This document shows positions 11,407 to 18,069 of a stretch of 32,423 nt of DNA, one piece after another (within the stretch, counting starts at the first letter, position 1; every line of letters starts with the position of its first letter). Source of the DNA: Gemmatimonadota bacterium (GTDB lineage: Bacteria; Gemmatimonadota; Gemmatimonadetes; Gemmatimonadales; Gemmatimonadaceae); assembly GCA_003221805.1 (NCBI GenBank), contig QHUA01000122.1, positions 1-32,423 on the forward strand, in the 5' to 3' direction. The notes under the pieces were generated by a model. It worked only from the letters and a program-made list of their open reading frames with translations. It had not been told where the DNA came from and ran no database searches. Position numbers and translations under genes: made by a program.

Positions 11407-12591
11407 TCATTTCACTGTGAAAGGAACACTGTATTGACGGTCGTCCCAGGTAAAGCTCAGAAGACCACCACTCGCCTGCGGTGTCACTCCGATCACGAAC
11501 TGCTCGACGGATGGAGATACTTGCTTCCCCAACAGATCGACGCGGGCAAAATCCTTGTCAGCGTGATAGTCGGTTCCCCACTGACCCGTCTCGCTGTTGA
11601 AGATCAACTTCGCGCCCGTCGGAGTGGGCACTGTCCACAGGGTGTATTTCCCCGCCGGCACAACTGTCGATCCAAAAACGAGATCCTTATCGGTGGTGAA
11701 CATGGTTGCCGCGTTGGCGCCGGTCCGCCAGACCTGATTCCAGGGAACGATGTTGCCGAAGATCACCCGGCCGCGCTTCAACGGTCGGCTATAGGCCACA
11801 ACGAGGTTGGCACCGCCGATCGTCGCCCTGGCAGTGTCGGGTGGGGACATCTGCCCCATTGTTCCCCCGCGCGCGGTTTCGATCGCCGCCCAAGACTTAA
11901 CGATGTTGTCGAAATCCATGCTGCTGACACGCTGCGCGACGGTCTTCACCGTCGTCGCACTGGCGTCGATGCCCAGGATGCGACCGCGCGAATCCACGCT
12001 GGCGACTTCCGTCCAGCCAGGGAAGAACGTGCTGGTAAACGCCACCGAGTCGGCGCCACGCCGGCGCAGAATGATCGCCGGCGCTGGTCCGGCGCCAGCG
12101 GCGATGAGAGCGTACGACGCGCTATCACGTCCGAGTTTCGCAGCTGACAACAGCTGCTCGTAAATCCCGTATGACGTAGGCTCGACGCCGATCATCGGAG
12201 CAGGGGCACCGTGATAGGTTTTCCTCCCACTAGACGCGGTGTCGACTTGTCCGTTGCGCTGGACCTCGACGACGGCGAGCGTGTCCCCGAATCTCGATAC
12301 GGTCCTTAGCACGGGCGGCGCACTCGGATCCGTGCCCGGCCTGCGAACGGTGGTGGTGAAGGACTTGATCCGCCCCTGCGGACCGAGATCGGCTATGTAG
12401 TGAATCGTGCGGACTCTCGGGTGCCGAAGCACGAGGTCTCCCTCGAGCTTGTCACTCGAGCGGGTGTATCGCTCGATGGCAACGGTGTCAACGCCAAGTC
12501 GAGTTACGATGTAAGCCGTGGCCGGCGCCTGCGCTGTGAGCGGAGCGGCACCGAACAGGAAGACCGCGGCTGATGCGAGTTTCATCGACAT
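11407..12591 (-). CDS. Secreted DUF2911 domain protein
   Basis: About 394 residues, exported. Signal peptide MSMKLASAAVFLFGAAPLTA, then an N-terminal beta-rich region of unknown type and, in the last 150 residues, the DUF2911 domain: VAYSRPLKRGRVIFGNIVPW, NQVWRTGANAATMFTTDKDL, VPAGKYTLWTVP, WGTDYHADKDFARV. DUF2911 function is not established; the fold is beta-sandwich-like and the family is common in Bacteroidetes/Gemmatimonadota-type genomes. I placed the start at ATG 12591, where the signal peptide begins; the frame is open back to a TTG at 12675 that overlaps the metB stop, but that adds 28 residues ahead of the signal. About 80 bases separate it from metB, so it may have its own promoter or be a trailing member of the methionine operon. 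Confidence 0.8.
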   Translation of the reverse strand: MSMKLASAAVFLFGAAPLTAQAPATAYIVTRLGVDTVAIERYTRSSDKLEGDLVLRHPRVRTIHYIADLGPQGRIKSFTTTVRRPGTDPSAPPVLRTVSRFGDTLAVVEVQRNGQVDTASSGRKTYHGAPAPMIGVEPTSYGIYEQLLSAAKLGRDSASYALIAAGAGPAPAIILRRRGADSVAFTSTFFPGWTEVASVDSRGRILGIDASATTVKTVAQRVSSMDFDNIVKSWAAIETARGGTMGQMSPPDTARATIGGANLVVAYSRPLKRGRVIFGNIVPWNQVWRTGANAATMFTTDKDLVFGSTVVPAGKYTLWTVPTPTGAKLIFNSETGQWGTDYHADKDFARVDLLGKQVSPSVEQFVIGVTPQASGGLLSFTWDDRQYSVPFTVK

Positions 12592-12671: not shown

Positions 12672-13874
12672 TCAAATGCCTGCGCCGATCTCCTCTGGCT
12701 CCGGGTCTGCCAACTCATCGGAGCGCGCGACGACCGCGTCGAGCGCCGAGGTGAGATCAGCGATGAGATCGTCTCCGTCCTCGATCCCCACCGACAGCCG
12801 CAGCAGCGAATCAGCGATGCCGGCCGTACGGCGCGCCTCCTCATCCATCGACGCGTGAGTCATCGTCGCCGGGTGCGCAACCAGGCTCTCAACCCCGCCC
12901 AGCGATTCCGCCAATGTGAAACACTGGAGGTTGTTGACGAATCGCTCCACACCAGCGAGCCCGCCTTCGACCTCGAAGCTCACCATGGCGCCGAAATCGC
13001 CCTGCTGTCTCGCCGCGACCGCGTGCCCGGGGTGGAACGCCAAACCGGGATAATAGACACGCTTCACACCGGAGTGAGCGCACAGCGTGTCGACCACCCG
13101 ACGCGCGTTCTCACAGTGAACGCGCATGCGCGCGTGCAACGTTCGCACTCCACGCAGAGTGAGGAAGCTGTCGAACGGGGCGCCGGTGATGCCAAGGCAG
13201 TTCGCCCACCACGCCAGCTCCTCGGCGAGGCTCGGGTCCGCAGCGATCACCGCCCCGCCGACGACATCGCTGTGCCCGTTGAGATACTTGGTGGTCGAAT
13301 GGACGACAAGATCGGCACCGAATTCGATCGGCCGTTGCAGCGCTGGTGAGAGAAAGGTGTTGTCGACACACACTATTGAGCCGACATCGTGACCGGCGGC
13401 GACGACAGAGGAGAGATCGGTTATCCGCAGCACCGGATTACTCGGCGTCTCGATCAAGAGGAGCTTCGGCCGGCGTGCGTTAATTAATTCGGCTGCGTTC
13501 TCAGCAGTGAGATCGGCGAACACTACATCGAAATGCCCACGGGCTGCCAGTGAGCGGAGGAGGCGATGCGTTCCTCCGTAACAGTCGTGCGCGGCAAGGA
13601 TCAAGTCCCCCGGACGCACAAGCTGTAACACCAACGCCACCGCAGACATCCCGGTGCTCGTCACCACTCCGCCTTCCCCGCCCTCCAGCTCGGCGAGCGC
13701 ATTGGCGAGATATTCTCGCGTCGGGTTGCCGGTCCGGGTATAATCGTAGAGGCGCTTCTTGCCGAACCCATCGAACGCAAATGTCGAAGACAGATGGGCG
13801 ATTCCCGCGCGTACGGCGCACGTCGCCGGCTTCCTCGAAGCTCGAGCGGGTTGCTGTGGCCGCTTATCCGTCAT
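12672..13874 (-). CDS. metB: Cystathionine gamma-synthase-type PLP enzyme with apparent in-frame gap
   Basis: PLP enzyme of the Cys/Met metabolism family; with metX upstream it should convert O-acyl-homoserine and cysteine to cystathionine (or with sulphide to homocysteine). PLP lysine is Lys197 in VVHSTTKYLNGHSDVVGG; DNTFLSPALQ holds the ring-stacking Asp171, DYTRTGNPTR the phosphate-binding Tyr/Arg from the partner subunit, and SLGGVESL the C-terminal carboxylate site. Length is 400. Oddity: the N-terminus reads AVRAGIAHLSSTFAF, where E. coli MetB has 13 more residues, including GCVVPPI, between the Gly-Leu/Ile and HLSST. Thus about 36-39 bases seem missing in frame near 13796-13803. The enzyme may be impaired if the gap is real. 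Starts at an ATGA overlap with metX. Confidence 0.88.
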   Translation of the reverse strand: MTDKRPQQPARASRKPATCAVRAGIAHLSSTFAFDGFGKKRLYDYTRTGNPTREYLANALAELEGGEGGVVTSTGMSAVALVLQLVRPGDLILAAHDCYGGTHRLLRSLAARGHFDVVFADLTAENAAELINARRPKLLLIETPSNPVLRITDLSSVVAAGHDVGSIVCVDNTFLSPALQRPIEFGADLVVHSTTKYLNGHSDVVGGAVIAADPSLAEELAWWANCLGITGAPFDSFLTLRGVRTLHARMRVHCENARRVVDTLCAHSGVKRVYYPGLAFHPGHAVAARQQGDFGAMVSFEVEGGLAGVERFVNNLQCFTLAESLGGVESLVAHPATMTHASMDEEARRTAGIADSLLRLSVGIEDGDDLIADLTSALDAVVARSDELADPEPEEIGAGI

Positions 13875-14815
13875 GACCAGACCCTCCGTTCCACCTGCAG
13901 CAGCTCATTAATGAACGGAGCCACGCGCGGCCAGTCGCCGAGAAACGCATCGTGACCAAACGAGGAGTCGAGCTCGACGAGCTGGCTCGGTCCGCCGAGG
14001 CGACTGGCCAGCTCCCGCGATTGCGCAATCGGCACCAGGCGGTCACTGCTGACGGCGATGATCGTGGTCGGCGTAGTGATCTCCTCGGGTCGGACCTTGT
14101 GCAGATCGAGTGAGAGCGACAACGAGTTGTATCTCTCGGACGTCCACTTATCCGCGAACCGCTCGCCCTGGGCTCTCAGGTAGCTACCAATTCGATCCTC
14201 GGTTGCTTGTATGTCATTCCCATCATCCTCGGCTAGCCGCTCCTCGAAATAGCGCGGCGTTAGATAGCTGGTCATCGCGATGCCGCGGGCGATGGCAAGT
14301 CCATCGCGCTCGCGACCCACGGCTGTGCCCAGTTCAACCACGCGCCGCTGCAGATGACGGAGGGCGGTCGCCATTGGGTCACTCTCATGGGCTGCGCCGA
14401 TCACAATCAGCCGATCGGCGCGCGCGGGAAAGGCAGCGCCGAAAGCCAGGGCGACCATTCCGCCGTAGGAGGCGCCAACGACGGCCTGCAAGCGGTCGAT
14501 GCCCAATTCGTCAAGAGCCCTCGCCAGACCACGTGCCTGATCCTCGGTCGTAACGGGAAGACTTCCCTTCACGTGCGTGAGATAGTCGACGGAGATGACG
14601 CGAAACTTGTTGGTATCGATCGCGCGACCTTCACCGACGACTTCCTCCCACCAACCCTGTCGCGGATCAGACGCCGATGATGTCACGTGTTTCGAAGCGG
14701 AGATGCCGCCGAGGACGGCGACGACGGGCGCGCCGGGGGCGCCGGTGATTTCGTAGCACGCAGCAGAACCATCGACCAGCGGCTCACACTCGCGCAGCAG
14801 TGCCAGGGCGGTCAT
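13871..14815 (-). CDS. metX: Homoserine O-acyltransferase (MetX type)
   Basis: Alpha/beta-hydrolase-fold enzyme that activates homoserine with an acetyl or succinyl group as the first committed step to methionine. 314 residues: oxyanion/early segment VVAVLGGISASKHV, GWWEEVVGEGRAIDT, nucleophile elbow GASYGGM at 114-120 (Ser116), lid region, then Asp in AVSSDRLVP and His in FGHDAFLGDW. Slightly shorter than classical MetX (about 370); it resembles the compact group found in Xanthomonadales-type operons, so acetyl versus succinyl donor cannot be decided. Start is ATG 14815, overlapping the hom stop as ATGA; the frame is open further upstream but that reads through hom. Confidence 0.9.
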   Translation of the reverse strand: MTALALLRECEPLVDGSAACYEITGAPGAPVVAVLGGISASKHVTSSASDPRQGWWEEVVGEGRAIDTNKFRVISVDYLTHVKGSLPVTTEDQARGLARALDELGIDRLQAVVGASYGGMVALAFGAAFPARADRLIVIGAAHESDPMATALRHLQRRVVELGTAVGRERDGLAIARGIAMTSYLTPRYFEERLAEDDGNDIQATEDRIGSYLRAQGERFADKWTSERYNSLSLSLDLHKVRPEEITTPTTIIAVSSDRLVPIAQSRELASRLGGPSQLVELDSSFGHDAFLGDWPRVAPFINELLQVERRVWS

Positions 14816-16197: not shown

Positions 16198-16232
16198 GTG
16201 GATCCTCGGTGAAAGACTCCGCGCACAAAGCA

Positions 16233-16264
16233 GAACGCCCGGGGCTGTGAGGCCGCGGGCGTTC
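16233..16264 (-). promoter_or_regulatory. Leader hairpin between SAM-II aptamer and hom, probable expression platform
   Basis: Perfect 9-base stem: GAACGCCCG (16233-16241) and CGGGCGTTC (16256-16264), with a possible inner GGC/GCC stem past a mismatch. On the minus (sense) strand it starts within a few bases of the aptamer tail and is followed by TGCTTTGTG, only a poor T tract. It may be a weak terminator or a structure that affects access to the GAGG site 26 bases further on. On the plus strand a five-T run follows, but no plus-strand gene would use it. Confidence 0.6.
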
Positions 16265-16267
16265 CTC

Positions 16268-16318
16268 GCTTTTTAGCATTTATTTAACGTGGCTGCAATA
16301 CGCGGCAAATGACCACAG
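16268..16318 (-). ncRNA. SAM-II-type S-adenosylmethionine riboswitch aptamer
   Basis: Sense (minus) strand shows all parts of the SAM-II pseudoknot. P1: TGTGGT (16312-16317) pairs with GCCACG (16288-16293). The loop begins CATTT (16307-16311) and contains GTATTGCA, as in known SAM-II RNAs. CATTT pairs with AAATG (16277-16281) downstream of P1, giving the H-type pseudoknot, and is followed at once by the hallmark tail GCTAAAAAG. The spacing between elements matches the crystallised metagenomic SAM-II RNA as I recall it. It lies about 70 bases upstream of hom, first gene of hom-metX-metB, the expected type of target. SAM binding should lower expression. A covariance-model search was not possible here. 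Confidence 0.85.
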
Positions 16319-16388
16319 GTATTTCGATTGTCTGGTGATGATATCTGCAGCCAAAATTACGCTCCCCGCCTTTCAGCTGTGGCTCCCG

Positions 16389-16414
16389 GCTGCTAGCCGC
16401 TAGCGCCTAGCTGC
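16389..16414. repeat. CTAG-rich near-perfect palindrome downstream of groEL
   Basis: A 26-base segment just past the groEL stop that equals its own reverse complement at 22 of 26 positions and contains three CTAGC units. CTAG is a rare tetranucleotide in most bacteria, so three in 20 bases is notable. It is flanked by GGCTCCCGGC (16381-16390). It could be a transcript 3'-end structure for groES-groEL, or a member of an interspersed palindromic repeat family. No T run follows on the minus strand. Confidence 0.55.
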
Positions 16415-16416
16415 TC

Positions 16417-18069
<1,653 letters not shown>

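Follow-up and report, generated by a model that had tools for sequence, protein, structure and literature searches.

A SAM-II element ahead of hom-metX-metB in Gemmatimonadota, a phylum in which this riboswitch class is unexpectedly common

Which signal controls the methionine genes hom, metX and metB in a member of the phylum Gemmatimonadota, and by what means? The question is raised by the window, by which we denote the whole stretch of 32,423 nucleotides that was analysed. An earlier note had read the leader of hom as a SAM-II riboswitch, placed ahead of three coupled methionine genes in a host that did not look alphaproteobacterial. The host indeed belongs to the Gemmatimonadota, and the coupling of the genes was borne out, as hom, metX and metB all score above curated cut-offs (Table 1; the NCBIfam score of metX was taken on a longer open reading frame containing the gene) and are joined by ATGA overlaps at 14812–14815 (hom/metX) and 13871–13874 (metX/metB). 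According to Pfam, the hom product carries an NAD-binding and a catalytic domain and no ACT domain at E ≤ 0.001, and NCBIfam places metX in the succinyl type. Upstream of the switch, groES and groEL are encoded on the same strand. Downstream, metB is followed by a gene for a DUF2911 protein (11407–12591), which keeps its place in the sister genomes G011 and G016.

Assignment of the element to the SAM-II class is safe. When the whole window was searched with cmscan and Rfam 15, RF00521 (SAM-II, SAM_alpha) was the sole match at gathering threshold, covering the full length of the model (positions 1–79) with an E-value of 2e-5, and no other of the 4227 families, the other SAM classes included, exceeded its gathering cut-off. 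The Infernal comparison proposed in the earlier note is thus significant, and its reading of the hom leader is confirmed. RF00521 is also matched independently, with E-values from 2e-7 to 5e-7, by the corresponding leaders of five sisters (G005, G010, G011, G014 and G016), and a search of 14 named control genomes returned zero matches. All aptamer parts that had been named beforehand, i.e. P1, the CATTT/AAATG pseudoknot, the loop and the tail, were found in the sequence, and the span originally marked (16233–16318) takes in the aptamer plus the hairpin after it. P1 closes the loop with six pairs, four of them Watson-Crick and two G-U, and the pseudoknot P2 runs from the loop to the 3' tail, with the last G of its 3' strand doubling as the G of the conserved GCUAAA. 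Both this tail and the conserved UUGC loop bases are present; the aptamer loop contains GTATTGCA, and GCTAAAAAG is found at 16269–16277. Judging from its family membership, the element would be expected to bind SAM.

Table 1. Positions of the switch, its predicted parts and the neighbouring genes in the window.
Feature	Position	Strand	Basis or remark
SAM-II (SAM_alpha) aptamer, RF00521	16254–16326	minus	cmscan 38.5 bits, cut-off 36
P1 5' strand, UGUGGU	16312–16317	minus	Rfam alignment; partner 16288–16293
P1 3' strand, GCCACG	16288–16293	minus	Rfam alignment; partner 16312–16317
Pseudoknot P2 5' strand, CAUUUG (DNA CATTTG)	16306–16311	minus	sequence; six-pair helix with 16277–16282
Pseudoknot P2 3' strand, UAAAUG (DNA TAAATG)	16277–16282	minus	sequence
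P2b 5' strand, CGC	16302–16304	minus	covarying outer pair in relatives; partner GCG 16267–16269
P2b 3' strand, GCG	16267–16269	minus	covarying outer pair in relatives; partner 16302–16304
GCCGCG in aptamer loop, proposed antiterminator 5' strand	16301–16306	minus	complementary to 16252–16257
CGCGGC in 5' side of hairpin, proposed antiterminator 3' strand	16252–16257	minus	complementary to 16301–16306
Attenuator (terminator-like) hairpin	16232–16265	minus	10-pair outer stem GGAACGCCCG/CGGGCGUUCU and 3-pair inner stem
GAGG, likely hom ribosome-binding site	16204–16207	minus	sequence; 6 bases before ATG 16197
TATCAT where the sisters have their −10 box	16338–16343	minus	no −35 box 17 bases upstream
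hom, homoserine dehydrogenase, 461 aa	14812–16197	minus	NF004976 258.6 bits, cut-off 205; start codon ATG 16197
metX, homoserine O-acyltransferase, 314 aa	13871–14815	minus	NF006449 324.6 bits, cut-off 296
metB, cystathionine gamma-synthase, 400 aa	12672–13874	minus	TIGR02080 534.6 bits, cut-off 504.55
groEL, upstream neighbour of the switch	16417–18057	minus	TIGR02348 874.9 bits, cut-off 582.1

Conservation was followed through 61 genomes, that of the window and 60 relatives, which hold 94 SAM-II matches, or 91 after three partial ones (G008:C6, G052:C41 and G060:C231) were dropped. The alignment took in 81 of the 85 distinct aptamer cores and omitted four for which the pattern had picked up too much sequence. 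UUGC and GCUAA are invariant across the 81 aligned relatives, an invariance that is partly built in because the alignment set was picked by a pattern requiring similar letters. With the given structure, 84.4 % of the cells are paired compared to 81.6 (sd 0.4) in shuffles, and the covariation score amounts to 0.120 compared to 0.083, values that none of 500 shuffles reached; the number of pairs with double changes, five, is ordinary (241 of 500 shuffles reach it). The covariation that the earlier note had asked for was found only in part: the outer pairs of P2 and P2b covary, P1 hardly does. In P1, 99.8 % of the cells are paired, three of the six pairs never vary and a two-sided change occurs in one sequence only, so this nearly invariant stem yields little covariation.

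P2 is paired in 64.5 % of the cells, and its covariation is weak by alignment because MAFFT misplaces a one-base gap; P2 was therefore tallied directly from strand pairs. Of 49 distinct strand pairs with a G at the outer P2 position, 37 have a C before GCUAA; of 13 with a C at this position, 12 are without that C and, like the window, can use the G of GCUAA as a partner (Fisher p = 6e-5, uncorrected for relatedness). The P2 helix length in own pairs, 3.66, does not go beyond that of swapped pairs (mean 3.58, highest of 200 swaps 3.78). Most variable is the outer P2b pair, which among the 75 sequences with letters is G-C in 31, C-G in 22, A-U in 7, G-U in 3 and unpaired in 12. Could the element in the window nevertheless be a degenerate or non-functional SAM-II relic, with a low score, a first P2 pair lost in the sisters and a decayed promoter? 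Its score only 2.5 bits above the cut-off, an A opposite the G at the outer P2 pair in the sisters G005, G011 and G014, and the missing −35 box would fit such a decay. Aptamer core, hairpin and gene order, however, are kept in sisters whose hom is only 62.7–63.4 % identical, and the window itself has the full six-pair P2, which makes a relic very improbable.

The hairpin after the aptamer is unusually stable, as the stretch 16222–16268 folds with −25.5 kcal/mol (z −3.27) and none of 200 shuffles is as low. Its tail, GCUUUGUG, is poor in U, and a terminator pattern scan of the minus strand of the window found no terminator. Scored as a hairpin with a T-rich tail it obtains 36.5, which 1 of 1000 shuffles reaches, and scores of at least 30 were found in 70 of the 91 leaders compared to 66 of 910 dinucleotide shuffles and 9 of 486 coding windows. 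This stricter scoring was used because a loose terminator rule, which detects a hairpin in 89 of the 91 leaders and none in two, also found hairpins in many shuffles. As a check set served the first 60 matches listed from the phylum draw in genomes outside the 61-genome set, of which one (L214) was unparsable; scores of at least 30 were reached in 46 of the remaining 59, a set that leans to high scores because it was taken from the first matches listed.

The U-poor tail and the negative pattern scan would also suit a SAM-II switch acting on translation or via Rho, in which bound SAM would keep the ribosome out or lay the leader open, the hairpin being no more than a spacer or a weak terminator that works constitutively. 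In Sinorhizobium meliloti, the metA SAM-II switch is predicted to act on translation, and the metA terminator strongly lowers expression in both media (PMC9373788). For the window we consider this mode improbable, as the likely hom ribosome-binding site lies outside the hairpin and about 60 bases beyond the aptamer, and the leaders carry a hairpin with a T-rich tail directly behind the aptamer, a feature seen far less often in shuffles or coding windows.

Starting from the observed family match, aptamer parts, hairpin, gene order and sister conservation, we favour with a probability of roughly 0.8 the reading that the element is an OFF switch of hom-metX-metB working by transcription attenuation, whereby SAM binding, direction of control, termination and antiterminator are predicted features. 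With SAM bound, P1, P2 and P2b would form and occupy the aptamer loop, so that the hairpin could fold and RNA polymerase would stop. Without SAM, the GCCGCG of the loop, possibly together with the P1 5' strand, would pair with the emerging 5' side of the hairpin and delay it, allowing the polymerase to continue into the three genes, which would be translated in a coupled fashion. Plentiful SAM would accordingly lower their expression.

Folding of growing transcripts is consistent with such an antiterminator. The proposed pairing is part of the minimum-energy fold of the window transcripts ending at 16243 or 16240, two of the 15 lengths tried; the same folds also pair the P1 5' strand with 16245–16250, and the terminator appears once the transcript reaches 16236. 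Loop pairing was likewise seen at some lengths in G011 and G030, and at no length tried in G005. Across 90 leaders (the unparsable G037:C17 was set aside), those with a GCCGCx loop have a fitting base opposite x in 27 of 31 cases (C-G 16, G-C 10, G-U 1), and none of 20000 within-group swaps, which ignore relatedness, pairs as well. Both x = G and x = C are found within the genus of the window and also within the single genome G019. Taken alone, the check set does not confirm the pairing: a fitting base stands opposite x in 7 of 10 leaders, a result that is equalled by 2292 of 20000 swaps and is not significant. Leaders with other loops showed no such pairing (17424 and 11931 of 20000 swaps as good), and an antiterminator common to all leaders was accordingly rejected.

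A further peculiarity of the window concerns the gap after groEL. In G010, G011, G014 and G016, in which groEL also lies upstream of the switch, this gap contains an inverted repeat with a T run followed by TTGAC-N17-TATTAT; G005, whose contig begins too near the switch to show the upstream gene, has the promoter-like sequence TTGACC-N17-TACTAT. In the window (16310–16417) the T run is absent and GGGAGC-N17-TATCAT stands where the sisters have their promoter. A promoter pattern scan of the window found no promoter, and its best −35/−10 match is 8 of 12, reached by 252 of 1820 shuffles, compared to 9–10 in these sisters. In this one draft assembly groESL read-through may possibly feed the switch, because both the T run of the groEL terminator and the −35 box of hom are missing. 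We put forward only tentatively the wider proposal that the switch is an intercistronic attenuator in a groES-groEL-hom-metX-metB unit and that, across the Gemmatimonadota, SAM-II is the SAM riboswitch ordinarily used. If it is true, chaperonin transcripts would run into the SAM-II element, and SAM would decide on their continuation into the methionine genes.

The earlier note had also suggested that the switch controls the threonine branch point, which is doubtful. The genome of the window encodes another homoserine dehydrogenase, part of a fusion with an aspartokinase that bears ACT domains (C62, L060), and a switch governing all threonine supply was rejected on this ground. As far as the sequence was read, G005, G011 and G014 show hom, metX and the beginning of metB or more, whereas G010 and G016 keep the switch, metX and metB while hom is missing from the site. 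The metX product of G016 opens with about 19 residues resembling the start of Hom, which suggests that hom may have been lost there by an in-frame deletion. Since an ACT-bearing aspartokinase-homoserine dehydrogenase is encoded elsewhere and two sisters are without hom at the site, the hom behind the switch looks to be an enzyme of the methionine side, on which threonine need not depend. SAM would thereby control the first committed homoserine step, next to a separate enzyme of the threonine type. Used as a lone query, the Hom protein of the window found no relative in the contig scan, and an alignment of seven such proteins took its place.

As a lone example, the switch of the window is otherwise ordinary; the frequency of its class in the phylum is not. 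At E ≤ 0.001, SAM-II was detected in 58 of the 61 genomes, 53 of which score above the cut-off, and the genome of the window has two elements, one before hom and the other before metH. In a draw of 395 Gemmatimonadota genomes, 262 have a match and 221 exceed the cut-off, a count that is if anything low because fewer candidates per genome were scored than in the other samples. In the sample from the class of Roseomonas (Alphaproteobacteria), 66 of 142 genomes have a match (56 over the cut-off), in the phylum sample of an Acidobacteria record 19 of 149 (11) and in that of a Bacteroidota record 8 of 148 (3). Thus the class named after Alphaproteobacteria is, in the samples searched, more frequent in Gemmatimonadota. 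SAM-I (RF00162) was matched in 4 of the 61 genomes, two over the cut-off, and had no match at E ≤ 0.001 in the genome of the window. One draft genome, G048, with a listed contamination of 2 %, has both SAM-II (46.9 bits, C215:707–780) and SAM-I (59.1 bits, C279:1529–1625) over the cut-off; Barrick and Breaker 2007 reported that no species with both classes was found (PMC2258182). The many diverged sequences offer material for comparing expression platforms, and outline a likely regulon of sulphur amino acids in a phylum of which few members have been cultured.

The first genes downstream of the 91 hits are mostly methionine genes, namely metH (48), metX (8), hom (7) and metY-like (3), next to threonine-synthase-like genes (7), panB (5), ATP-grasp genes (5), three single others and five unassigned. 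The 59 leaders of the check set gave metH 39, panB 3, threonine-synthase-like 3, metX 2, metY-like 2, hom 1, aminotransferase 1 and 8 unassigned. In two Gemmatimonadota loci (L119 and L129), SAM-II is followed by a metB/metY-like gene, metX and hom.

Several other arrangements were observed. At eight loci (L198–L205, in G055, G058, G039, G047, G034, G037, G054 and G056), a threonine-synthase-like gene lies downstream of SAM-II, either first or after panB, together with a gene whose 91-aa, ThiS-like product ends in GG, with a ThiF/MoeZ-like gene, or with both. In five genomes, i.e. G001, G019, G026, G027 and G053 (L112, L003, L071/L207, L109 and L103), SAM-II precedes a RimK-like ATP-grasp gene, which in four of the five stretches (G001, G026, G027 and G053) is followed by a gene with a product like MRYGYWLPVFGGWLRN, which would resemble flavin-dependent sulphonate monooxygenases. 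On G019:C13 (L003), two SAM-II elements stand back to back about 210 bases apart (14227–14302 minus, 14510–14583 plus) at the divergent genes panB and ATP-grasp.

Similar systems have been described for some of these arrangements. The threonine-synthase-like loci resemble the O-phosphohomoserine route of Streptomyces with MetM and the sulfur carrier MetO (cited in PMC12172450), here under SAM-II. A SAM-II element ahead of hom, taken by itself, is neither new nor unusual, since hom-metXC under SAM_alpha has been reported for Hyphomonadaceae (Leyn et al. 2014, PMC4239095); as in the window, the element precedes hom, metX and a gene for a Cys/Met PLP enzyme within one operon, a likeness by description. 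The Hyphomonadaceae differ in being Alphaproteobacteria, in that the operon of Oceanicaulis is also under SahR, and in the third gene, metC there as opposed to a scored metB in the window. With the metA element of Corbino et al. 2005 (PMC1273637) the window shares the covariance model, P1, P2, the conserved tail and the methionine genes, and with many members described there the terminator between P2 and the first gene, in the window a terminator-like hairpin. Attenuation by a terminator after the aptamer is likewise predicted for the S. meliloti metZ switch (PMC9373788), which differs from the window in gene, phylum and hairpin sequence. Among the literature matches listed, from a search with most subscription journals and the Rfam species list outside it, no description of SAM-II in Gemmatimonadota was found. 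The range named by Barrick and Breaker 2007 comprises alpha- and gammaproteobacteria and Bacteroidetes (PMC2258182), whereas the host of the window belongs to the Gemmatimonadota; the switch class itself is known, and what is new here is the host lineage and the frequency of SAM-II within it.
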